A stretch of DNA of 32,953 nt, from NCBI GenBank assembly GCA_027624735.1, contig JAQBTY010000005.1:1-32953 (forward strand). The letters run 5' to 3'. Origin of the DNA: Pseudomonadota bacterium. Its GTDB lineage: Bacteria > Pseudomonadota > Alphaproteobacteria > MPNO01 > UBA2964. Below are positions 2,890 to 20,179 of this stretch, in pieces (positions within the stretch are counted from its first letter, which is position 1; the number at the start of each line of letters is the position of its first letter). A program made the translations under genes and the position numbers. The notes beneath the pieces are model-generated. The model saw nothing but the letters and a program-made list of their open reading frames with translations, was not told where the DNA came from and did not search any database.

Positions 2890-2982
2890 TATCTAATCCG
2901 GACAGTCAAAATGCCGACCGCTCCTCAAGTTAAAGAAGCCGTATCGCGTAACGCATGGGAGGGGATGGCCCTGCGTGACGGC

Positions 2983-3047
2983 TCCCTACGCTGGTTTGAA
3001 CCAGGTCAGGTTCTATGGGTGTTTTCTCAGCCCTGTTGGACACCCCA
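2983..3047 (-). promoter_or_regulatory. TPP riboswitch (THI element)
   Basis: On the minus strand this contains the conserved THI-box parts in the right order: a GGGGTG start, the CTGAGA pyrimidine-sensor loop, the AACCTGA(T/C)CTGG core and the AGCGTAGGGA closing strand. The outer CCCC/GGGG pairing closes the three-way junction. It sits in the leader of thiO-thiS-thiG-thiE, so thiamine diphosphate should switch the operon off. Downstream, a C-rich CCCCTCCC stretch near 2960 and a purine-rich GAGGAG further on could form the sequestering stem. No intrinsic terminator is obvious, so control of translation initiation is more likely than attenuation. Confidence 0.95.
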
Positions 3048-3059
3048 GGTCACGAAAAC

Positions 3060-4182: not shown

Positions 4183-5191
4183 AAGGCTTATCCCTCTTGC
4201 TCCGCAGGCCCAAGATGTTGTAGAACATATCATGAACATGATCCCGTGGAGGTGTTGCAATGTCCGACTTTCCCCGCTCGCTGCTGGAGTTCCAGCGCCG
4301 CTTTCCCGATAACACCGCCTGCGCCGCCTATCTGGCGGCGGCGCGCTGGCCGGCGGGCTTTGTCTGCCCCGACTGCGGCGGCCGACGAGCCTGCCTGCTG
4401 GTGACGAAGGCGCATACCTACCAGTGCTCGGCCTGCCACAAGCAGACCTCGGTCACCGCCGGCACGGTGATGCACGGCTCCAAGTTGTCGCTGACGGTGT
4501 GGTTCTGGGCGGCCTATCTGATGGCGACGCACTCCAACGGCATGTCGGCCCGCCAGTTGTGGCGGCAACTGGGTCTGGGCTCCTACAAGAGCGCCTGGCT
4601 GCTCGCCGCCAAGTTGCGCCGGGCCATGGTCGATCCCGAGCGCAATCCTTTGGGCGGCTTGGTCGAAGTGGACGAGACGCAGATATCCTACCGGACCAAG
4701 GACGACCCGCCGGCTGGCGGCGGCGGACGCAGCGGCGAGGGCAAGCTGCAAGTGGCCGCCGCGGTCGAAGTTCAGGGCAAGGGGCCCGGCCGCGTTCGTC
4801 TGGCAGTGATCACCGACGCCTCGGCCGCCAGCCTGCGCACCTTCCTCAAGGCCAGCGTGGCCCCCGGCGCCACCATCAAGACCGATGGTTGGTCCGGCTA
4901 CCCTGGTGCCCCGGGCGTCATTCACGAGCCGCATGTGGTCGGCACCATGGCCGCTCATATCGTCCTGCCCTGGGTCCATCGCATTTTCTCCAACCTCAAG
5001 GCCTGGGCCTTGGGGGTCTATCACGGACTGCGAAAATCCCATCTCCAGGCTTACCTCGACGAGTTCGTCTTCCGCTTCAATCGCCGGCGGACGCCACATG
5101 CCGCTTTCCGCACCCTGCTCGGCATCGGCACCTCCATCATGCCGGCGACCTACAAGATGCTGATCGCAGCGGAGGTAAAGGGATAAGCCTT
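4183..5191 (+). mobile_element. IS1595-family insertion sequence
   Basis: About 1.0 kb with a single transposase gene, bounded by imperfect inverted repeats. The left end AAGGCTTATCCCT continues C-T-T-G-CTCCGC; the right end, read on the minus strand, is AAGGCTTATCCCT continuing T-T-A-C-CTCCGC. Thirteen bases match exactly, followed by a shared CTCCGC block. The transposase stop codon lies inside the right repeat. IS1595 elements normally make 8-bp target duplications, but the flanks (TAGCTGCG left, CTGGGGCG right, or shifted by two bases) do not match. That suggests rearrangement or decay of one flank. The exact outer base could be 4185/5189. Confidence 0.85.
4260..5186 (+). CDS. IS1595-family (ISXO2-like) transposase
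   Basis: A 308-residue transposase. The N-terminal zinc ribbon has two cysteine pairs (C36/C39 in CPDCGG and C56/C59 in CSACHK). The DDE-type nuclease domain shows D138 in VDETQ, D209 in IKTDGWSGY and H240 in LPWVHRIFSNLK, with the GVYHGL and YLDEFVFRFNRR blocks that mark the family. A His in the third position is normal for one IS1595 subgroup. A good GGAGGT ribosome site precedes the ATG. The frame is complete, so the enzyme may be active. High local GC and very regular codon use also produce a long false reading frame on the other strand. Confidence 0.92.
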   Translation: MSDFPRSLLEFQRRFPDNTACAAYLAAARWPAGFVCPDCGGRRACLLVTKAHTYQCSACHKQTSVTAGTVMHGSKLSLTVWFWAAYLMATHSNGMSARQLWRQLGLGSYKSAWLLAAKLRRAMVDPERNPLGGLVEVDETQISYRTKDDPPAGGGGRSGEGKLQVAAAVEVQGKGPGRVRLAVITDASAASLRTFLKASVAPGATIKTDGWSGYPGAPGVIHEPHVVGTMAAHIVLPWVHRIFSNLKAWALGVYHGLRKSHLQAYLDEFVFRFNRRRTPHAAFRTLLGIGTSIMPATYKMLIAAEVKG

Positions 5192-11121: not shown

Positions 11122-12045
11122 TCAGCGGATTTTGAACACAATTTTGCCGCGGACATGGCCGTCGGCGCTCAGCTTTTGCGCCGCCGCCGCATCCGCCAAT
11201 GCCATTTCCTTGACATCCATGGGTTTAATCGCACCGGCTGCATAGAGTTCGGAAATCCGGTCCAGATGGCGTGGGTCCCGAGTCACGTTAGGGCGCTTTA
11301 CGGTGACATTATCGGGCGGAATGAAACCAGCCGGCGGCGCCGCGACATAAACAAGACGGCCGCCGGGTTTCAGAACCGCGAAGCTCTGTTCATGTACTTT
11401 TCCACCCATGGTGTCGAAGATCACGTCGCAGGGCGGAACCGCCTGCGTGAAATCCTGGCTTGTGTAATCGATGACTTCATCGGCGCCGAGGTCACGGACA
11501 TAGTCATGGTTGCGGGCGCTGGCGGTGGCATAGACGGTCGCGCCAAGATGTTTTGCGTACTGCACCGCAAATCCGCCAACACCCCCGGCGCCGGCATGAA
11601 TCAGGATTGTTTCACCCGCGGAAAGCGCAACACTATCCAGCGAAACAATCGCCGTCGCCCCGACAAGCGCCAGAGCGGCGGCGTTAACATGGGACAGGCC
11701 GGCGGGCTTGCGCGCGACAAGCGACGCGTCGACGGCGATCGCGTCGGCATACGTCCCCTGCTGGGTCTGGGGCGTTACGCCATATACCTCGTCACTGGCG
11801 CCGAACGTCGTGACACCGGCACCGACCGCCCGCACCACGCCCGAAAAATCGATGCCCGGCGTGTACGGAAAATTCAGGAAAAGATTGTCCTTGCGCGCGC
11901 CATTGCGAATTTTCCAGTCCACCGGATTGACGCTCGCGGCGTAAATGTCGACCACGAGCTCTCCCGGGCCAGCAACCGGATCGATGACATTGCGCAGCTC
12001 GAGTACATCCGGACCGCCATAGGCATCTAGTTGAATTGCTTTCAT
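11122..12045 (-). CDS. zinc-free MDR family quinone oxidoreductase-like enzyme
   Basis: A 307-residue medium-chain dehydrogenase/reductase. It begins MKAIQLDAYGGPDVLEL, typical of NADP-dependent quinone oxidoreductases. The NADPH motif is AGAGGVGGFAVQYAK (about residue 150). The catalytic zinc ligands of alcohol dehydrogenases are absent, as in the QOR group. The C-terminal KLSADGHVRGKIVF is standard for the family. It is the last gene of the minus-strand cluster that starts at 16783, and a short SDR relic separates it from the MetE-like gene. GAAGGGTG precedes the start. Confidence 0.85.
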   Translation of the reverse strand: MKAIQLDAYGGPDVLELRNVIDPVAGPGELVVDIYAASVNPVDWKIRNGARKDNLFLNFPYTPGIDFSGVVRAVGAGVTTFGASDEVYGVTPQTQQGTYADAIAVDASLVARKPAGLSHVNAAALALVGATAIVSLDSVALSAGETILIHAGAGGVGGFAVQYAKHLGATVYATASARNHDYVRDLGADEVIDYTSQDFTQAVPPCDVIFDTMGGKVHEQSFAVLKPGGRLVYVAAPPAGFIPPDNVTVKRPNVTRDPRHLDRISELYAAGAIKPMDVKEMALADAAAAQKLSADGHVRGKIVFKIR

Positions 12046-12063
12046 ATGTTAGTCCGACACCCT

Positions 12064-12141
12064 TCAATGCGCGACAGCGCCACCATCAAATACCATGGTT
12101 TGTCCCTTCACGAAATCCGCATCGCGAAATTCCTGGCAACT
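12064..12141 (-). pseudogene. C-terminal relic of a short-chain dehydrogenase
   Basis: In the 95-bp gap between two genes the minus strand encodes CQEFRDADFVKGQTMVFDGG then AVAH and a TGA stop (12064-12066). The FVxGQTxxxDGG pattern is the hallmark of the SDR C-terminus. There is no start and no Rossmann part; upstream, this frame runs into the MetE-like gene, which is read in another frame. It therefore looks like the tail of a deleted SDR gene. About 25 codons remain. Confidence 0.6.
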
Positions 12142-13307
12142 TAACCCCAAAGCTCCTTGCTGGCGATTGCAGCCCCCTCAACCAGGGCGTTGAACTTGGC
12201 CCACATGATCGAGGGGTGGACGCGGCGATATAACGGACCCTGCGCAAATCCGCAATCGGTACCGGCGATAACGCGTTCGCGCCCCAGAAGCCTGGCCACC
12301 CGCACGATCCGCTCGGCGACCAGTTCGGGATGTTCAACCACATTCGTCGAATGGCTGATGACGCCATGGATCAGGATCTTGTCCTCGGGCAAATCCGCCT
12401 CACCCCAGACTTTCCATTCATGTTCGTGACGCGGGTTGGCCCCTTCGATGACATAGGCGCCGGCATTCACCTGCAGGATAAGATCGACGATATCCTTCAG
12501 CGCAACATCGGTGGTATGCGGTCCGGGCCAGCTTCCCCAACAAACATGGTAGCGGATTTTCTCCGGCGGAATGCCCTCGAGAGCGAGATTGAGAACCGCC
12601 ACATGTTTCGCGACCCAGTCACGGTATTCCTTGAAGGTGCCCGGCGGCACCATTCGGTCGTAGGTGACGGTCGCCCGCGCATCGTCGAGCTGCAGCAACA
12701 AACCGGCATCGATTATGGCGTTGTATTCCACCTGCATGGCCTTGCCGATGGCCTCCAGGCAATCATCCTCGCTCGCATAAAACTCGTTGCGGCGGTCCGG
12801 AATGACGCTGGACGGGGCGGCGACCGGCAGGAACCCTTCGGCAACGTCAACCTGCGCCAGCGCCGCCTTGAAATTGGCGATATCCCGCTCGACATCGGCC
12901 AGCCCGGTATAGTCGATGGGCGCCACGCAGACCGCCTCGTTCACCGTGGCGTATTTTTGCTTGCCGTCGAGTTCTTCGTAAAATTCAGCGAACCGTTCCC
13001 TGTCCGCGCCCTGGGCAAAGACGTTTCCTTCGGTGGAAATCGGCCGCCTTTCGAACCCGCTCAACCGTTCCAGTGCATATTGGGACCAGCTGATGGATTT
13101 GCCGAACTCGCCATCGCTTACCACGTCGATACCGGCCGCCGCCTGCTGGCGGACGATGTCGGCGACACTGGATTTCAGACAGGCCGCATGGGCAGCCCTG
13201 TCATAGGGTTCGCCGGCCTGTAAGGGACGGATGTACGTCAGCAGATCGTCCGGCCTGATGAGACTGCCGACATGGGTGGTCAAAACACGGTCAGTACTAC
13301 GCTGCAT
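12141..13307 (-). CDS. MetE C-terminal-like (cobalamin-independent methionine synthase II family) protein
   Basis: A 388-residue zinc barrel similar to the catalytic C-terminal half of MetE, without the N-terminal folate-binding half. It begins RVLTTHVGSLIRP, the common opening of this group. Expected zinc ligands are visible as His254 and Cys256 (YHVCWGSW), an acidic residue around Glu289 (VIEGANPRHE) and Cys352 (AGTDCGF). These proteins transfer methyl or related groups to thiols; many are not true methionine synthases. It lies downstream of a second MetE-like gene and a MetF-like gene on the same strand, so a methyl-transfer role is likely. Methyl donor and acceptor are unknown. Confidence 0.85.
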   Translation of the reverse strand: MQRSTDRVLTTHVGSLIRPDDLLTYIRPLQAGEPYDRAAHAACLKSSVADIVRQQAAAGIDVVSDGEFGKSISWSQYALERLSGFERRPISTEGNVFAQGADRERFAEFYEELDGKQKYATVNEAVCVAPIDYTGLADVERDIANFKAALAQVDVAEGFLPVAAPSSVIPDRRNEFYASEDDCLEAIGKAMQVEYNAIIDAGLLLQLDDARATVTYDRMVPPGTFKEYRDWVAKHVAVLNLALEGIPPEKIRYHVCWGSWPGPHTTDVALKDIVDLILQVNAGAYVIEGANPRHEHEWKVWGEADLPEDKILIHGVISHSTNVVEHPELVAERIVRVARLLGRERVIAGTDCGFAQGPLYRRVHPSIMWAKFNALVEGAAIASKELWG

Positions 13308-13390
13308 ATCGCCCCTGGAAATTCATTTATAATTTTTTTAGCACAGCTCCGAACGCCCGGCTGCGAGTATAGGCATATGCCGATGGCGCG

Positions 13391-14416
13391 TCACCCCGGA
13401 CTGGCAATCAATCGATGTTTTGTCAGTATCGCAGCCACATCGTGGGGCGACAAATCGCCCAGTCCGCATTCACTGGCGACGCCAAAGGCGGCGACCCGTT
13501 GCGCCGCAAGGGCGATCTGGTGATGGGTTATGGCAATATCGTCGTTGGTATGGATAACGCCGAGAAACAGCTGCGTTTCGTCACGCAGGGTCAACCGATC
13601 CAGAGGCGCGAAATAGCGTCCGTCGCGTGTGTATTTCGGCACCGGAAAATGCATCCAGTCGATGGGCCGGCCAACGAGGCCGGATAGGCCGTTGGCGAGG
13701 TCGACGATCCGGTCGAGGTCCGCCGGCAATGGAAAATCATTGAACTCAAAATCGCGAAAGCAGAAATGCAGCCCAAGTTCCACGCCATCGGGGACAGCTT
13801 CGGCGGAGCGAACGATACGATCCAGAATGCCGTCCCAGACCCGCCTGAAATGAACCGGCCGCCGCCCCTCGATAACGCTGAGCTCGGTCGCGAGATTCCA
13901 TTGGATCGCGAGTTCATGGTGCGGAATGGCCGAAGCAATTTCAGCGATCTCTTCCAGCAAGCGGTTCTCATAGGCCGGCTCGACCGCGATTTGAAAGGCA
14001 TCATCGACATGTTGCGCGACCACGCTAAGCGCGGTCGCGACACCGACCTGGAGCCGGCAATCGGCGGCAATCGTTCCTTTTGCCTTTGCCGCGGTAAATG
14101 CCTGATAGGATACTTTCGCGGCGGCGGCATACCCCAACGGGCCGAACTGAACCGCTGCCGTCGGAAAGCCGGAACGCACCCTGTATTGAGGTCCTTTTTG
14201 CCGCTGCCCGGATGGACCGGAGGAATCATCTATCCGCTCGACAAAGGGTATCCGGCCGAACACGGACGATTGCCACTGCACCCAATCTGTCCGGTCCCCG
14301 GATTCCCCGTCGGGTATCCGGTGAATGAGGCCGTCCAGTTCACACCCGACGGCGGAAAAGACGTCATCCGCCGATTTGAGCGGAATGCTGCCAATCAGAA
14401 GGATTTCTCTCGCCAT
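13391..14416 (-). CDS. divergent MetE/UROD-like barrel protein
   Basis: A 341-residue protein distantly related to MetE-like barrels. It begins LLIGSIPLKSADDVFSAV with the IPDGESGDRTDWV segment characteristic of an uncharacterised branch of this superfamily. Possible zinc ligands are His217 and Cys219 (GLHFCFRD) and Cys317 (ASECGLG). The acidic ligand between them is not obvious in the same place, so zinc chemistry may differ. The ATG shares one base with the stop of the MetF-like gene (TGATG), a strong sign of coupled translation and of joint function. It differs clearly from the other MetE-like protein downstream, so it is not a recent duplicate. Confidence 0.75.
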   Translation of the reverse strand: MAREILLIGSIPLKSADDVFSAVGCELDGLIHRIPDGESGDRTDWVQWQSSVFGRIPFVERIDDSSGPSGQRQKGPQYRVRSGFPTAAVQFGPLGYAAAAKVSYQAFTAAKAKGTIAADCRLQVGVATALSVVAQHVDDAFQIAVEPAYENRLLEEIAEIASAIPHHELAIQWNLATELSVIEGRRPVHFRRVWDGILDRIVRSAEAVPDGVELGLHFCFRDFEFNDFPLPADLDRIVDLANGLSGLVGRPIDWMHFPVPKYTRDGRYFAPLDRLTLRDETQLFLGVIHTNDDIAITHHQIALAAQRVAAFGVASECGLGDLSPHDVAAILTKHRLIASPG

Positions 14417-15336
14417 CAGGAACTGCCCTCCGATCGCACCCGTGCCAGGACATCGAGGATACTCAGGGCCTTGACCGGCGCCATCAGATGCACGCCGGCG
14501 ATTCCGGGAATGGTCCGCATTGCCTCGATCAATTCACTGCAGACCGCGATCCCTTCCGCCGACGGGTCGGCGGCTTGCTCCAACCGCTCGATTACGCTGT
14601 CGGGGACCAGCACACCCCACAGATTGTCACGCATCCAGCGCGCCGACCGCGCCGACGCCAGCGGCCCCGTCCCGATCAAAATCTTAAGCCGTTCGGTCAG
14701 TCCCAGATCTACCAACCTGCCGATATACCGAACGATGATTTCGATATCGAAGCATAGCTGTGTCTGGACAAACCCGGCGCCGGCATCCGCCTTCGCAATC
14801 AGCCCCTCGGGCCGCCATCCGGGCGGGGGATCGATGGGCGTGTCGGCGGCGCCCATGAAAAAATGTGGGCGGGTGACGATCGGCCGGTCGCCGGCGCAGA
14901 TACCGTCTTGCGCCATCCTGGTGGCTGTCGCGATCAGTTCACGAGCATCCATATCGAAAACCGGTTTCGCCGCGGGATGCTGATCGGCGGGCAGATCGTC
15001 ACCGCGAAGCGACAGGATATTGTGGATGCCGAGCGCCGAGGCGCCGAGCAGATCGGCCTGCATGGCTATTCTGTTACGGTCCCGGCAGGTCATTTGCAAA
15101 ATCGGCTCTATGCCATTCGCCGACAGGATTGCGGCCGCGGCCAGGCTCGACATATGAACGAGGGCGCGCGGACCGTCGGTGACATTCAGCGCGTCCACCC
15201 TGCCGCGGAACGGTTCGGCCAGGGCAAGAAGATCGTCCGCGGAACCGGAGACCGGCGGCGTCAGTTCCGCGGTAATGGCAAACCCCTCGTTGCCCAACAA
15301 TGCCGCCAATCCGCTATCGCCACTGAGGTCCGCCAT
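14416..15336 (-). CDS. methylenetetrahydrofolate reductase (MetF-like)
   Basis: A 306-residue FAD-dependent TIM barrel of the MTHFR family, close to E. coli MetF in length. Motifs: AELTPP near residue 23 with the catalytic-type Glu, ALNVTDGPRA, QMTCRDRNRIAMQADLLG, the NILSLRGDD strand-loop and FVQTQLCFD. It interconverts methylene- and methyl-tetrahydrofolate. The start at 15336 was chosen for the AAGGGG upstream and the 16-nt gap from the preceding stop; an earlier ATG (15378) would overlap that gene. The stop is fused to the start of a MetE-like gene. In such a setting it may supply methyl-THF for transfer, or recycle methyl groups taken from a substrate. Confidence 0.88.
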   Translation of the reverse strand: MADLSGDSGLAALLGNEGFAITAELTPPVSGSADDLLALAEPFRGRVDALNVTDGPRALVHMSSLAAAAILSANGIEPILQMTCRDRNRIAMQADLLGASALGIHNILSLRGDDLPADQHPAAKPVFDMDARELIATATRMAQDGICAGDRPIVTRPHFFMGAADTPIDPPPGWRPEGLIAKADAGAGFVQTQLCFDIEIIVRYIGRLVDLGLTERLKILIGTGPLASARSARWMRDNLWGVLVPDSVIERLEQAADPSAEGIAVCSELIEAMRTIPGIAGVHLMAPVKALSILDVLARVRSEGSS

Positions 15337-15352
15337 TGGTTTGCCCCTTGGG

Positions 15353-16783
15353 TTAAGCCCGCCGCCTGGAGACGACAAAGGATTCGTCGAAAAACCACAG
15401 CCCGCCGCGTTCTTTCAAAACGTCGCGTGTCGCATCCAGATAGAAGCCGTCCTGTATGACCGCCTCGAGGCGGTCGTCCTCGATCTGGGCAACATAGACC
15501 GCCGCATTCCACGCCGCCAACAGGGTAGATGTGCCAATGCTGCTACCCACCTCGCTCGGGAGTGTGTGCATGTTGTAGCGAAAAATAGCGCGCTTGTCGG
15601 CATAGGTGTTGAAGTTAAGGTCCCTTTGGGTGCGGCCGATTTCCTGCTTCAGAACCTTGAGCAGATCGTGTCTGTTCGTTTTGAACGGATCTTCGCCGGG
15701 CCACATCCTGCGGACGATGTCGAGACCCGGATCGTTGCCGTGAGAGTGAATCCCCAGCAACCGCCCCCCCGGCCCCAGGCTGCTCGCGAGCGGCGCCAGG
15801 ACCTTTTTCACTTTGAAATCGTTGGACATTCTGGCGCGGTAGGGCTGCGAGGCGATAACCAGATCGTAATCGGCGCGCGTGCGACCGGGCTGCGGAATGA
15901 CCTGATCGAGCAAAAACTTATGATCTTCCCGATAAAGCACCAGCACGGACGGCCGCACATAAAGCGGATTGCCGGTTTTTTCGCTGGCCCGAACCTGCCA
16001 CCCCTCGGCGAGTTGCGGCTGCAAATTGGCGATCTGCTCATCGAACTCGTACGCGGTATTTCCCGACAGCGGAACGTCAATCCAGTTCAGGGCCGCCGCG
16101 GCCTGCATCGAGCGCGGAGAAAGCCATGGCGCTTCCGTGTAGTAAAGATTGGTGACGACCAGAACCGTCGCCGGATGCTCATGAAAACGGTCGGGCATCT
16201 TTTCCAGACTCAGGCGAACGTCCTCAAGACTGACTTCTTTCCCCACCAGGTAGAAAGGCAGCGTCGGAAACCGGTGATGCATATTGCGCATGACCCGGGT
16301 CAGGACCGTCCCGTCTCCCATACCGGCGTCGAACACCCGCAAGGCCGGGGGCTGCGGGTGAATATGCGCAAGCTCCATGCCGGCCCGATCCGCGACCACC
16401 CATTTTTCCCCGCAGGTGTTGACGAACATGAGATATTTCTGGCGATTGTCATAAAACCGGAATGTCGCCTGCGGATCGAAAGCCTGAGGCGCGGATCTTT
16501 TGCCGCCGGCTAATCGTGCCGATGGCGCATGAACAGGCCCACCGGTTTCCACTAGCCTGTTGTCCGGCGATCCGGCGCCTTCGCCGGCAGCCCCAAGATT
16601 TGCGTTTGTCATGAGGAACTGTCTGACGCGTCCCACAGTCGCCGTGGTCACGCGCTTGCCATCACGCAGACGGCTGACAAATTTACCGTCATTGACGGAT
16701 TTTTTTCCGAAGGTGGATTCAGCAATACCCGCCGCGCGGCAGTATTCCTCTATCCGTCGCAGAAGCTCAGATTGATCATCCAT
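15353..16783 (-). CDS. HTH-domain protein fused to SAM-methyltransferase-like domain
   Basis: A 476-residue protein in two parts. Residues 1-60 (LLRRIEEYCRAAGIAESTFG, then DGKFVSRLRDGKRVTTATV) look like a small helix-turn-helix domain. From about residue 100 on there is a Rossmann-like methyltransferase core: LRVFDAGMGDGTVLTRVM as motif I, FYLVGKEVSLEDVR after it, and later DYDLVIASQPYRAR and GPGGRLLGIHSHG strands. I know this only as a conserved uncharacterised alphaproteobacterial type. The start at 16783 has GGAGGG upstream; ATG at 16822 is a less likely alternative. First gene of the methyl-transfer cluster, so it may regulate it, modify a cluster product, or both. Substrate and DNA target unknown. 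Confidence 0.7.
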   Translation of the reverse strand: MDDQSELLRRIEEYCRAAGIAESTFGKKSVNDGKFVSRLRDGKRVTTATVGRVRQFLMTNANLGAAGEGAGSPDNRLVETGGPVHAPSARLAGGKRSAPQAFDPQATFRFYDNRQKYLMFVNTCGEKWVVADRAGMELAHIHPQPPALRVFDAGMGDGTVLTRVMRNMHHRFPTLPFYLVGKEVSLEDVRLSLEKMPDRFHEHPATVLVVTNLYYTEAPWLSPRSMQAAAALNWIDVPLSGNTAYEFDEQIANLQPQLAEGWQVRASEKTGNPLYVRPSVLVLYREDHKFLLDQVIPQPGRTRADYDLVIASQPYRARMSNDFKVKKVLAPLASSLGPGGRLLGIHSHGNDPGLDIVRRMWPGEDPFKTNRHDLLKVLKQEIGRTQRDLNFNTYADKRAIFRYNMHTLPSEVGSSIGTSTLLAAWNAAVYVAQIEDDRLEAVIQDGFYLDATRDVLKERGGLWFFDESFVVSRRRA

Positions 16784-17097
16784 ACGGAACCCATGCCCTC
16801 CAGCGAATAGCCCAGACTTCACCGTGATAATTTTCCTGTCAATAATTTTCCCAATAAATTTAAATTATCATTAATGGGAAGTATCCCACCGCTATTGCAG
16901 AAAACGGCAAAGTTCCGGGCATTTCTTGGGTGGGACCTGGTGGGATACCATCGGGATCCTACGGCCTGGTGGGTCTTCTTCCCAATGTTTTATCCTGACA
17001 CCATCAGAGTCGGACTCGGCCGCCTCTGTTTCCGCCTGTACCCAACCGCGTTCGCACGCGATACAATCCGTGAATATTAGAAATTGAAGGTTTCTAA
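16784..17097. other. 314-bp divergent intergenic region with nested inverted repeats and AT-rich direct repeats
   Basis: No convincing gene. Near the methyltransferase gene, ATAATTTTCC occurs twice (16827-16836 and 16842-16851, period 15) in an AT-rich stretch that could hold the promoter. Further right, GTATCCCACC (16881-16890) pairs perfectly with GGTGGGATAC (16939-16948), flanked by an outer TGGGAAG/CTTCCCA pair (16875-16881 and 16978-16984). This could be a structured RNA leader or an operator pair for the HTH protein. A 68-codon open frame at 16874 has no recognised content. Confidence 0.5.
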
Positions 17098-17706
17098 ATG
17101 GACCCTCGCAGTAGCGCCCCCATAAACAATGACGCCCTGAACAGGCTTTTCCGCGATGCCCGCACGTTCGATGCCTTTCAGGACAGGGCCGTTCCGGACG
17201 AGCTGCTGCAGGCCGCCTATGAGTTGGCGCGGATGGCGCCGACCAGCGCCAATTGCCAGCCCATGCGCATCCTGTTTTTGCGATCGGCGGAAAGCCGTGA
17301 ACAATTGGCGCCGGCGCTGTCTTCCACCAACCGGGACAAAACCCTGGCGGCGCCCATAACGGCAATCATCGCCCATGATCTGGATTTTCCGGCCACCTTG
17401 TCGCAACTCTACCGCGTCCCGGGCGCGGACAAGTGGTTTTCGGGCGAGGACCTGATCGCGGAAACCGCATTCCGCAACGGTTCGCTGCAGGGGGCCTATT
17501 TCATGCTGGCGGCGCGCGCCGTCGGGCTCGATGTCGGCCCCATGTCGGGTTTCGATAATGTAAAAGTCGACGCGACCTTCTTTCACAGCGGCGATCACGC
17601 CAACTGGCGATCCAACTTCATCTGTAATCTCGGCTTCGGCGACCCGACCGGCCTGCCGCCCCGCGATCCAAGGCCCGAATTCTCGGACGCCTGTTCGATT
17701 TTGTAA
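17098..17706 (+). CDS. rutE: malonic semialdehyde reductase RutE-like nitroreductase
   Basis: A 202-residue flavoprotein of the nitroreductase fold that matches the RutE pattern closely from memory: LFRDARTFDAF, MAPTSANCQPMRI (FMN phosphate contacts), ALSSTNRDKTLAAPITAI, AETAFRNGSLQGAY and VGLDVGPMSGFD. RutE reduces malonic semialdehyde to 3-hydroxypropionate at the end of the Rut pyrimidine ring-cleavage pathway, and can take other toxic aldehydes. Here rutB, rutC, rutD and rutF are absent, while two RutA-like oxygenases lie convergently next door. Only 37 bp separate their stops. A role in detoxifying an aldehyde from that chemistry is the natural inference. Confidence 0.82.
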   Translation: MDPRSSAPINNDALNRLFRDARTFDAFQDRAVPDELLQAAYELARMAPTSANCQPMRILFLRSAESREQLAPALSSTNRDKTLAAPITAIIAHDLDFPATLSQLYRVPGADKWFSGEDLIAETAFRNGSLQGAYFMLAARAVGLDVGPMSGFDNVKVDATFFHSGDHANWRSNFICNLGFGDPTGLPPRDPRPEFSDACSIL

Positions 17707-17743: not shown

Positions 17744-18835
17744 TTATGCCCGCAACCCAAGCCGCTGCAGGCGCGGCAGCACCTCGTCGCGGAGCGCGGG
17801 CATGTCGTCGATATAGTTGACCAGGCCGACGGCCATGCCGTCGAGGCCGTAATCGCTGAGCTGGCGGAACCGGTCGGCCACCGCGTCATAGCTGCCGACC
17901 ACCGGATAGGTGCCGGTGCCGCTGATGATGACTTCTTTCATTTGGGCGAGCTTTGCCCCGGAGGTGGAACCGCCGCGGGTCCTGATCTTTACCGTGTGTT
18001 CGGCCGCCTCCCAATCGCCGTGCTCGTAAACCAGATAGTGGTAATATTCCTCTGCCTCTTTCGCCGTCGGCTTGCAGATCAAATGGCCGCTGGCATAGAG
18101 GCCGGCGCTGCCGGCGGGACGGTTTTTCTGCAATTCGGCGACCTTGCCGGATAGTTCGTCAAGTTCGCGCACGGACGTGAACAGGCAATCGGCGTGCCGC
18201 CCGGCAAAGGCCAGCCCCGCGCCCGAGTTGCCGGCACTGATCAGAAGCGGCCGGTCATCGTCATAGGGTTTTGGTTTGAGAAGAACGCCTTTCAGGTCGA
18301 AATACTTGCCCTTGAAATCGAATGGCTCGTCCTCGGACCAGATTCGTTTGACGATGGTGACCCATTCCTCGGAATAATCGTAGCGTTCGTCATGCTCGCG
18401 GATCTGCACGCCATGCATCTCGTGCTCACCCACGTTCCAGCCGGACACGATATTGAGGCCAAACCTTCCTTCGCCGATATGGTGCGCGGTCACCATCTGC
18501 TTGGCGGCGAAGATGGGGCTCAAGAGCGACACGTGAACGGTGCCGAAAATACAGATGTCCCTGGTGCCGGCAAGAAGGCCCGACGCCCAGGTCAGGGTTT
18601 CAAAGGATTCACCCGCCGTGTCGGTCTCTCCGCCATAGCCGTGCCAGCGTCCGATGGGCAGCAGAAATTCGAGCCCGGCCTCATCGGCGAGACGCGCTGC
18701 CTGGAGATTGTTATCGAACGAGGCGTCCCAGTATTCCGGCGCCTTGGTCATGGTCAGCCCGCCGGAACAATTGAGGCCGAACAGCCCGAGCTTGAATTTG
18801 TTGGGGCCATACATGCGGGTTTGGTTACGCTTCAT
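17744..18835 (-). CDS. LLM class flavin-dependent monooxygenase, RutA/SfnG-like (copy 2)
   Basis: A 363-residue luciferase-like TIM barrel. FMN-binding and family blocks seen: the CSGGLTMTKAPE opening, LPIGRWHGYGGETDT, GRFGLNIVSGWN, DEPFDFKGKYFDLKGVLLKP and the closing TGTYPVVGSYDAVADRF. It needs a separate flavin reductase for FMNH2; none is adjacent. RutA (pyrimidine ring opening) and SfnG (dimethyl sulfone) are the nearest named types I can recall, and the choice cannot be made by eye. The start at 18835 (MKRNQTRMYG) overlaps the upstream paralog's stop by 11 bp, so the two are coupled. It shares long identical blocks with that paralog. Confidence 0.85.
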   Translation of the reverse strand: MKRNQTRMYGPNKFKLGLFGLNCSGGLTMTKAPEYWDASFDNNLQAARLADEAGLEFLLPIGRWHGYGGETDTAGESFETLTWASGLLAGTRDICIFGTVHVSLLSPIFAAKQMVTAHHIGEGRFGLNIVSGWNVGEHEMHGVQIREHDERYDYSEEWVTIVKRIWSEDEPFDFKGKYFDLKGVLLKPKPYDDDRPLLISAGNSGAGLAFAGRHADCLFTSVRELDELSGKVAELQKNRPAGSAGLYASGHLICKPTAKEAEEYYHYLVYEHGDWEAAEHTVKIRTRGGSTSGAKLAQMKEVIISGTGTYPVVGSYDAVADRFRQLSDYGLDGMAVGLVNYIDDMPALRDEVLPRLQRLGLRA

Positions 18836-19958
18836 CGACAGGGCTCTCTTGTTTCCAAGCGGTGACCGGCAGTCGCAGGCCGAGCCGTTCCATGCGCGGC
18901 AGGACTTCGTCGCGCAGGGCCGGGAAATCCGTAATGTAATTGACCAGCCCGATGGCGATGCCATCGACGCCGCACTCACTCATCATACGGTATTCCTCCA
19001 CCACGTCATCGTAACTGCCTACCACCGGATAGGTGCCGACGCCGCTGATCATGCGTTCCTTAAGCGTGGTCAGCGTTTTCAAGGGCGTATCGCGGCCCTT
19101 GGTGCGGATCGCCACGGCATGCTCGGCGGCCTGCCAATCGCCGGTGTCGTAGACGATGTAATTGTAATAATCCCGCGCCTCTTTCCGGGTTGGCTTCGCG
19201 ATCATGTGGCCGCTGGCGTAGATCCCGACATTCTTGTTTTCGGATGATTCTCGAAGCGCGGCGACGCTGGGGCCGAAGGCGTCAAATTCCATTATCGACG
19301 TAAACAGGCAATCGGCATGGCGCGCCGCAAAGGCCTTGCCGGCAGGCGAATTGCCGGCGCTCACCAGCATAGGTCTGTCCCCGCCATAGGGTCGGGGCTT
19401 TAACAGCACGCCCTTGAGATCGAAATATTTGCCCTTGAAGTCGAACGGTTCGTCTTCCGCCCACACGCGTTTGAGGATGGTCACCCATTCTTCGGTATAG
19501 GCGTAGCGTTCTTCATGTTCGCGCATCGTGACGCCGAACATGGTGTGTTCGCCTGCGTTCCAGCCCGACACCATGTTGAGCCCGAAGCGGCCCTTGCCGA
19601 TATGATCGGCGGTAACCATCTGCTTGGCCGCGAATATGGGGCCGATAAAGGGCACGTGGACGGTGCCGAACAGGCAGATGTCCCGGGTGGCCGCCAGGAG
19701 ACCGGACGCCCAGGTCAACGTCTCGAAGGCCGTTCCCTCGGTGTCGGTTTCGCCCTTGTAGCCATGCCACCGGCCGATCGGCAGGATGAATTCAAGCCCG
19801 GCTTCGTCGGCAAGCCGCGCCGCCGTGACGTTGTTCCGCCAACTCGGATCCCAGCGTTCCGGCGCCTTGGTCATGGTCAGCCCGCCGGAACAGTTCTGCC
19901 CGAACAGACCAAGCTTGAATTTATTGGGCCCGTACATGCGGGTGTGAAGGCGCCCCAT
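18825..19958 (-). CDS. LLM class flavin-dependent monooxygenase, RutA/SfnG-like (copy 1)
   Basis: A 377-residue paralog of the downstream gene, with the same blocks: CSGGLTMTKAPE, LPIGRWHGYKGETDT, GRFGLNMVSGWN, the 20-residue DEPFDFKGKYFDLKGVLLKP, and VGTYPVVGSYDDVVEEY. The C-terminus has an extra LPVTAWKQESPVDEA tail. The start at 19958 (MGRLHTRMYG) is preferred because homology to the paralog begins at RMYGPNKF; the longer frame to 20087 is unlike the family. It opens the two-gene unit and is divergent from the TRAP transporter. Sequence differences are spread along the length, so it is an older duplication that may have split substrate or step specificity. Confidence 0.85.
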   Translation of the reverse strand: MGRLHTRMYGPNKFKLGLFGQNCSGGLTMTKAPERWDPSWRNNVTAARLADEAGLEFILPIGRWHGYKGETDTEGTAFETLTWASGLLAATRDICLFGTVHVPFIGPIFAAKQMVTADHIGKGRFGLNMVSGWNAGEHTMFGVTMREHEERYAYTEEWVTILKRVWAEDEPFDFKGKYFDLKGVLLKPRPYGGDRPMLVSAGNSPAGKAFAARHADCLFTSIMEFDAFGPSVAALRESSENKNVGIYASGHMIAKPTRKEARDYYNYIVYDTGDWQAAEHAVAIRTKGRDTPLKTLTTLKERMISGVGTYPVVGSYDDVVEEYRMMSECGVDGIAIGLVNYITDFPALRDEVLPRMERLGLRLPVTAWKQESPVDEA

Positions 19959-20050
19959 CTGTGCACACGCTCCGGTAAGAAACCTGAATTGGCGCCACGC
20001 ATCCCGCAGCCCCGTCTCCCCATTAAACCACGGGCAATTGGAATTGGGGA

Positions 20051-20070
20051 AGATATAGAGGGAAATATCT
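20051..20070. promoter_or_regulatory. short inverted repeat in the monooxygenase/TRAP divergent gap
   Basis: AGATAT (20051-20056) and ATATCT (20065-20070) form a perfect 6-bp inverted repeat with an 8-bp spacer, midway in the 221-bp gap between the divergent units. It could be an operator coordinating both, but it is short and no local regulator gene is present. Confidence 0.25.
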
Positions 20071-20179
20071 CTGCCTGTTCTGTGCACTAGACAATCGAGC
20101 GGCTTCCCGCGATGATGACCGCCATAACAGACGGTCAGGTAGGATGACCGCGTTCATACGAGGCGACAGGGAGAAAACG

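Follow-up and report, generated by a model that had tools for sequence, protein, structure and literature searches.

The stretch analysed here, referred to as the window, comprises 32,953 nucleotides (nt) of contig JAQBTY010000005.1 from an alphaproteobacterial metagenome-assembled genome (MAG). On its minus strand, five collinear open reading frames (ORFs) are called within the bounds 11122-16822, in agreement with the initial annotation of this DNA, which had described such a gene set from the sequence alone. The first gene encodes a protein, designated HTHMT, that combines an XRE-like helix-turn-helix (HTH) domain with a class I S-adenosylmethionine (SAM)-methyltransferase fold. It is followed by genes for a MetF-like protein, two MetE-like proteins (MetE1 and MetE2) and an oxidoreductase (Table 1). 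What is new is the family of regulators represented by HTHMT, together with its operator, and the cluster is probably an accessory methionine/SAM-cycle operon placed under this new kind of SAM-linked, HTH-methyltransferase regulator.

The MetF-like stop and the MetE1 start have base 14416 in common (TGATG), confirming the one-base overlap noticed earlier. The gaps between MetE1 and MetE2 (84 nt) and between MetE2 and the oxidoreductase gene (96 nt) are too large for co-transcription to be taken as proven, and sigma-70 promoters and terminators occur across the region in numbers no higher than expected by chance. The oxidoreductase is probably a bystander outside the conserved module.

Table 1. 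Features of the cluster, in window coordinates
Feature	Positions	Strand	Basis or remark
HTHMT	15353-16783 from ATG 16783; ORF open to GTG 16822 (489 aa)	-	ORF calls, homologues, AlphaFold2 model
MetF-like	14416-15378	-	PF02219; probable start ATG 15336
MetE1	13391-14416	-	core MetE fold, no Pfam model
MetE2	12141-13307	-	PF01717, YxjG/1ypx type
Oxidoreductase (QOR)	11122-12045	-	zinc-type medium-chain dehydrogenase/reductase, PIG3-like quinone oxidoreductase
Predicted palindromic operator TGGGATACTTCCCA	16875-16888	-	family motif; 92 nt 5' of the HTHMT ATG

HTHMT and its genomic neighbourhoods

The AlphaFold2 model of HTHMT, built with 55 homologues (pLDDT 88.7), contains a four-helix HTH at residues 14-73, a disordered linker and a Rossmann methyltransferase domain that spans about 120-489 (residue numbers of the 489-aa ORF from GTG 16822). 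Its closest folds in the PDB are those of histamine N-methyltransferase and further class I methyltransferases that act on small molecules, and the motifs D165-A-G-x-G-D and S325-Q-P are invariant among the homologues. Searches of HTHMT against Pfam (up to E=10) and against PDB sequences (a profile query included) returned no match.

M.SsoII is a DNA methyltransferase that represses its own gene through an N-terminal HTH, and SPPY is motif IV of amino-methyltransferases. An orphan DNA methyltransferase of the M.SsoII kind would share with HTHMT the domain architecture and the autogenous palindrome described below, and the SQPY of HTHMT resembles SPPY. However, the fold matches are small-molecule methyltransferases, with no DNA methyltransferase among the 50 best listed, and the neighbouring genes belong to the methionine cycle, which leaves this explanation barely credible.

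The search of genome contigs gave 395 confirmed HTHMT matches, the best 80 of which belong to MAGs of Alpha-, Beta- and Gammaproteobacteria and to a few records labelled SAR324 or Lambdaproteobacteria. Gene neighbourhoods were compared at 99 HTHMT loci, 96 of them long enough for the downstream gene to be judged. A MetF-like gene, belonging to one of two subfamilies, lies directly 3' on the same strand at 60 of these 96 loci and nearby at 13 more, and, over 36 loci, HTHMT and MetF are correlated in their pairwise identities (r=0.62). Core MetE-like genes within 4 kb are found at 21/99 loci, metK or ahcY at 9/99, and an apparent adenosine kinase, recognized by eye, at two. Moreover, the density of MetE genes within 4 kb of HTHMT is 4.1-fold that of the farther flanks (31 vs 8, p=7e-5), and the MetE2 family is present in 19 of 25 HTHMT-bearing but only 51 of 360 other alphaproteobacterial genomes (385 in total; p=7e-11, a value that ignores phylogeny and genome size). 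The conserved core is HTHMT plus the MetF-like gene. As regards conservation of the gene order, the HTHMT-MetF pair and the recurrence of MetE, MetK and AhcY stand, whereas the full five-gene order occurs only in the window and nowhere else among the 99 loci. No plasmid-borne HTHMT relatives were found. One locus (L123) lies in a record labelled as a Klebsiella pneumoniae MAG; this is probably an environmental bin under the wrong name.

Contig C177 of the host MAG has a sahR-metF-metH operon of its own, and the MAG contains about nine PF01717 genes, counting those of the window, with no product exceeding 424 aa. Housekeeping methionine synthesis is therefore independent of the window cluster, and the separate sahR-metF-metH operon makes the window operon accessory. 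HTHMT was not found in the sampled genomes of the same family, and the nearest MetE2 relative (84% identity, in the same-family genome G013) is solitary and stands beside unrelated genes. The cluster is therefore partly mosaic, and the unity of five genes proposed at first was overstated. A stronger version of this idea holds that transfer brought an HTHMT-MetF pair by chance into a genome rich in MetE genes, beside MetE paralogues with which it has no connection. The unique gene order, the many host PF01717 genes, the solitary MetE2 orthologue and the lack of HTHMT in sampled relatives are all in line with it, but the overlap of the MetF-like stop with the MetE1 start and the recurrence of MetE neighbours at HTHMT loci of other genomes are not. 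In particular, a MetE2-MetE1-MetE2 series lies beside HTHMT at locus L127 and a MetE1-MetE2 pair at L209. A chance assembly is rather unlikely.

A palindrome tied to the HTH domain

Upstream regions of the HTHMT family share a palindrome with the consensus RTGGG(A/C)WNNW(T/G)CCCAY; in the window, the site taken as 16874-16889 reads GTGGGATACTTCCCAT. Of 71 non-redundant regions upstream of HTHMT, 48 contain its TGGG-N6-CCCA dyad, whereas no dyad exceeded 8 in shuffled sequences. Sites number 69 in 31 kb of upstream sequence and 17 in 1.51 Mb elsewhere, a 198-fold difference in density, and none of six control dyads showed comparable enrichment. The palindrome lies 5' of 53/80 HTH-bearing homologues, mostly 85-145 nt ahead of HTH codon 18, and 5' of 0/19 homologues devoid of the HTH; for two of the latter, the sequence available upstream is short. 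Since the HTH-less homologues are without the site, the palindrome is tied to the HTH. Exact-string searches of open-access papers returned no mention of it. A scan of 23 sources revealed no SAM or S-adenosylhomocysteine (SAH) riboswitch ahead of HTHMT operons. The single SAM riboswitch in them, of the SAM-I/IV type, lies at 340-444 on the minus strand of L086, a Rhodospirillaceae MAG contig, about 9.5 kb from HTHMT; it is unusual for Rhodospirillaceae, and the contig could be a contaminant.

A scan of 61 HTHMT-bearing genomes, one duplicate handle having been removed, gave 63 distinct positions for the strict motif and 12 for a reversed control. By our tally, made by matching site sequences, 35 of the 63 lie at HTHMT loci and 28 elsewhere. 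Six of these 28 precede methionine-cycle genes, namely metF (G446), metF-metH (G384, G450), sahR-metF-metH (G445, G449) and a metE-like gene (G449), an outcome very unlikely to arise by chance if, as we assume, about 0.5% of promoters belong to the methionine cycle. A weaker site lies 230 bp before metK-ahcY-metF2 in G421, possibly within the end of the upstream gene. The remaining sites that were fetched fall mostly in coding regions. In the host genome, the window site is the only strict site outside a coding region. An extra candidate operator, G000:C158, was rejected for its position within a coding region, as were the conserved sites of G441 and G461, which by eye lie inside a cytochrome-oxidase-like gene.

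Two further sites have other neighbours, identified by eye. An operator common to L307 (position 3758) and L311 (position 3738) lies between divergent transporter-like genes, one resembling L-lactate permease and the other an SbmA-like ABC protein; this pair is possibly a further member of the regulon. At position 3994 of L314, from the same genome as L128, an operator stands 92 bp ahead of a Rieske-type oxygenase gene.

The MetF-like and core MetE-like proteins

The MetF-like protein matches PF02219 with 105 bits over model positions 8-285 of 287. ATG 15336, which lies 16 nt past the HTHMT stop and is preceded by AAGGGG, is more likely than 15378 to be its start. The best NCBIfam model is the methylenetetrahydrofolate reductase (MTHFR) half of the YitJ-type bifunctional homocysteine S-methyltransferase/MTHFR (PRK08645), on which the protein scores 178 of 453 bits, under the cut-off. 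YitJ-type proteins join an MTHFR and a homocysteine methyltransferase in one chain, whereas in the window the MetF-like protein is split off and its partner is of the MetE type. The catalytic Glu, Asp and folate-binding Gln of MTHFR appear to be retained, as read by eye from the E in TAELTPP, RGDD and TQLCFD.

With lengths of 341 aa (MetE1) and 388 aa (MetE2), both MetE-like proteins are without the N-terminal half, and they are mutually dissimilar, as had been claimed on both counts. The active site of MetE2, which matches PF01717, is complete and of the MetE type as far as residues can tell: all zinc ligands (H254-x-C256, E288, C352) and the homocysteine-site residues S15, E67 and D208 are conserved, the latter corresponding to the Ser/Glu/Asp set listed for MetE by Price et al. 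(PMC7857596). MetE1 has no Pfam match. It is nevertheless counted as MetE-like because its family aligns with the MetE2/YxjG-type family at an hhalign probability of 97.9% and because the best PDB folds for its AlphaFold2 model (pLDDT 90.3) are 1ypx and MetE. Its invariant residues are H217-x-C219, H256 and C317. In 26/26 MetE1 homologues His256 lies near the position of MetE Glu665, where the alignment may be about two residues off, and the HCEC/HCDC ligand set is apparently replaced by one with His for Glu665. By sequence, the zinc site is complete in MetE2 and appears altered in MetE1. The Pfam-less MetE-fold family with the invariant HxC-His-Cys set is large, with members in L014, L016, L029 and others; single genomes of the order to which the window belongs have as many as six matches.

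The known core methionine synthases MesA-D and core-MetE (PMC7857596, PMC7005905) likewise consist of a single catalytic MetE barrel. MetE2 retains their HCEC zinc site and homocysteine residues and differs in being of the YxjG/1ypx type, while MetE1 differs by the His in place of Glu665. Unlike these enzymes, MetE1 and MetE2 are associated here with a MetF-like gene. The MesD partner MesX (DUF1852) is absent from the Pfam-scanned neighbouring genes, the remaining genome not having been searched.

Core MetE proteins free of the folate half could also demethylate an unusual O- or S-methyl donor, with the MetF-like enzyme running in reverse to feed methylene-tetrahydrofolate. A MetF paralogue has been proposed to run oxidatively in glycine betaine catabolism (PMC12478193), MetE1 homologues often adjoin transport or catabolic genes, and SfnG/dimethyl-sulfone-monooxygenase-like genes of the luciferase-like monooxygenase (LLM) type lie at 17744-20087. 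However, a plus-strand gene separates these LLM genes from the operon; the recurrent partners of HTHMT-MetF are MetE, MetK, AhcY and, at the two loci mentioned, the apparent adenosine kinase rather than donor-specific demethylases; and the operator stands ahead of biosynthetic metF-metH and metK-ahcY genes. A literature search on a possible link to stachydrine and betaine (SMc04325-30) found nothing. The harvest of methyl groups from an unusual donor, as put forward in the initial annotation, finds no support in any neighbour shared across loci and is quite improbable.

HTHMT as a probable SAM-linked regulator

HTHMT is read as an autoregulated SAM-linked transcription factor because the same site precedes HTHMT, metF-metH, sahR-metF-metH, metE-like and metK-ahcY genes. 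The earlier view of the first gene as a controller gains from this HTH-tied operator and predicted methionine-cycle regulon; as a whole, that interpretation keeps its controller and its methyl transfer and loses its five-gene unity. HTHMT would bind the 16875-16888 palindrome in its own promoter through the XRE-like HTH, as their co-conservation suggests. Its class I domain, to judge by the fold, would bind SAM or SAH, thereby reporting the methylation state, and may additionally methylate a small molecule. HTHMT would set the expression of the MetF-like protein, predicted to make or consume 5-methyl-tetrahydrofolate, and of MetE2, whose residues point to a zinc-dependent core methyltransferase with a full homocysteine site. 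MetE2 would remethylate homocysteine alongside the housekeeping sahR-metF-metH system, and MetE1 would likewise be a zinc thiol-methyltransferase, related to MetE2 but distinct in its metal site. MetF-like and MetE2 thus fit an accessory branch of homocysteine remethylation. As a rule HTHMT would autoregulate the operon to which it belongs, and some lineages would have brought the main methionine/SAM-cycle operons under it as well. We infer ligand sensing, DNA binding, and repression or activation by HTHMT.

SahR and SamR are ArsR-type regulators of the SAM cycle, and their operator is a 20-bp palindrome, in some groups ATC-10nt-GAT (PMC4239095). They share with HTHMT an HTH followed by a C-terminal SAM-methyltransferase domain, as in the SahR-like protein of the host, a place as first gene before metF, autoregulation (predicted for HTHMT) and targets among metF, metH, metK, ahcY and metE, with HTHMT sites before SAM-cycle genes being a prediction. 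They differ in their ArsR HTH, which is a four-helix XRE-like one in HTHMT, in the methyltransferase domain, which in HTHMT has no Pfam match, and in the operator, which in the HTHMT family is TGGGN6CCCA. One genome can have both regulators, and in two cases it is sahR itself that the new operator precedes. In its logic, HTHMT would respond to SAM/SAH as SahR does.

Another fusion of regulator and methyltransferase heading a met operon is ArsR^M of Brevundimonas, which binds its own promoter, as predicted for HTHMT, and methylates arsenite (PMC10190100); it belongs to the ArsR family and its palindrome is CTTTATATAAAG. By this precedent, HTHMT could be chiefly a small-molecule N- or S-methyltransferase with a heavy SAM demand and its own SAM-regenerating genes, its HTH serving only for autoregulation. 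The small-molecule fold matches and the invariant, motif-IV-like S325-Q326-P327 agree with such an enzyme, and 19/99 homologues have no HTH yet keep the methyltransferase core, which means that the domain acts as an enzyme too, or did so in the past. Nevertheless, no product gene is common to the neighbourhoods, and the sites in trans ahead of metF-metH and metE suggest regulation beyond autoregulation. A chiefly enzymatic HTHMT is accordingly possible rather than probable, and a bifunctional protein, both regulator and enzyme, is quite possible.

Several points weigh against the regulatory reading. The strict site is missing at 27/80 HTH-bearing loci, about seven of which have one-mismatch or weak copies, and a second site is absent from most HTHMT genomes. 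Among metF promoters, 4/22 from HTHMT-bearing and 0/20 from HTHMT-lacking loci have the site (p=0.065), a comparison whose positives were partly chosen with hits known and which, as supporting evidence, is only suggestive. Furthermore, the MetE1-MetE2-QOR arrangement of the window is not conserved, and the homologues devoid of the HTH indicate a role of the methyltransferase domain beyond regulation.

A further-reaching proposal, evenly poised between acceptance and rejection, is that HTHMT founds an undescribed proteobacterial family of transcription factors in which a class I methyltransferase fold senses SAM/SAH on behalf of a methionine-cycle regulon with the operator RTGGGMWNNWKCCCAY. HTHMT would act jointly with the partner MetF-like protein, the latter being perhaps a folate-sensing co-regulator, not an enzyme. 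The known regulators of methionine and SAM supply form a short list (MetJ, MetR, SahR, SamR and riboswitches). If the regulatory reading is true, a further factor spread across three proteobacterial classes would complete the picture of this control in many uncultured lineages of sea and soil, and a second, apparently independent methyltransferase would have turned into, or doubled as, a methionine-cycle switch. The association also offers a practical way into the many paralogues of core MetE and MetF-like proteins that lack assigned methyl donors.

Elsewhere in the window, the LLM genes at 17744-20087 (minus strand) are two overlapping tandem genes of the SfnG/RutA-like type, and a nitroreductase resembling RutE and malonic-semialdehyde reductase is encoded at 17098-17706 on the plus strand. 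A thiamine pyrophosphate riboswitch at 2964-3057 (minus strand) lies 5' of genes for a DAO-family (ThiO-like) oxidoreductase, ThiG and thiamine-phosphate synthase. At 4260-5186, the plus strand carries a transposase gene of the IS1595 type (ISXO2-like).

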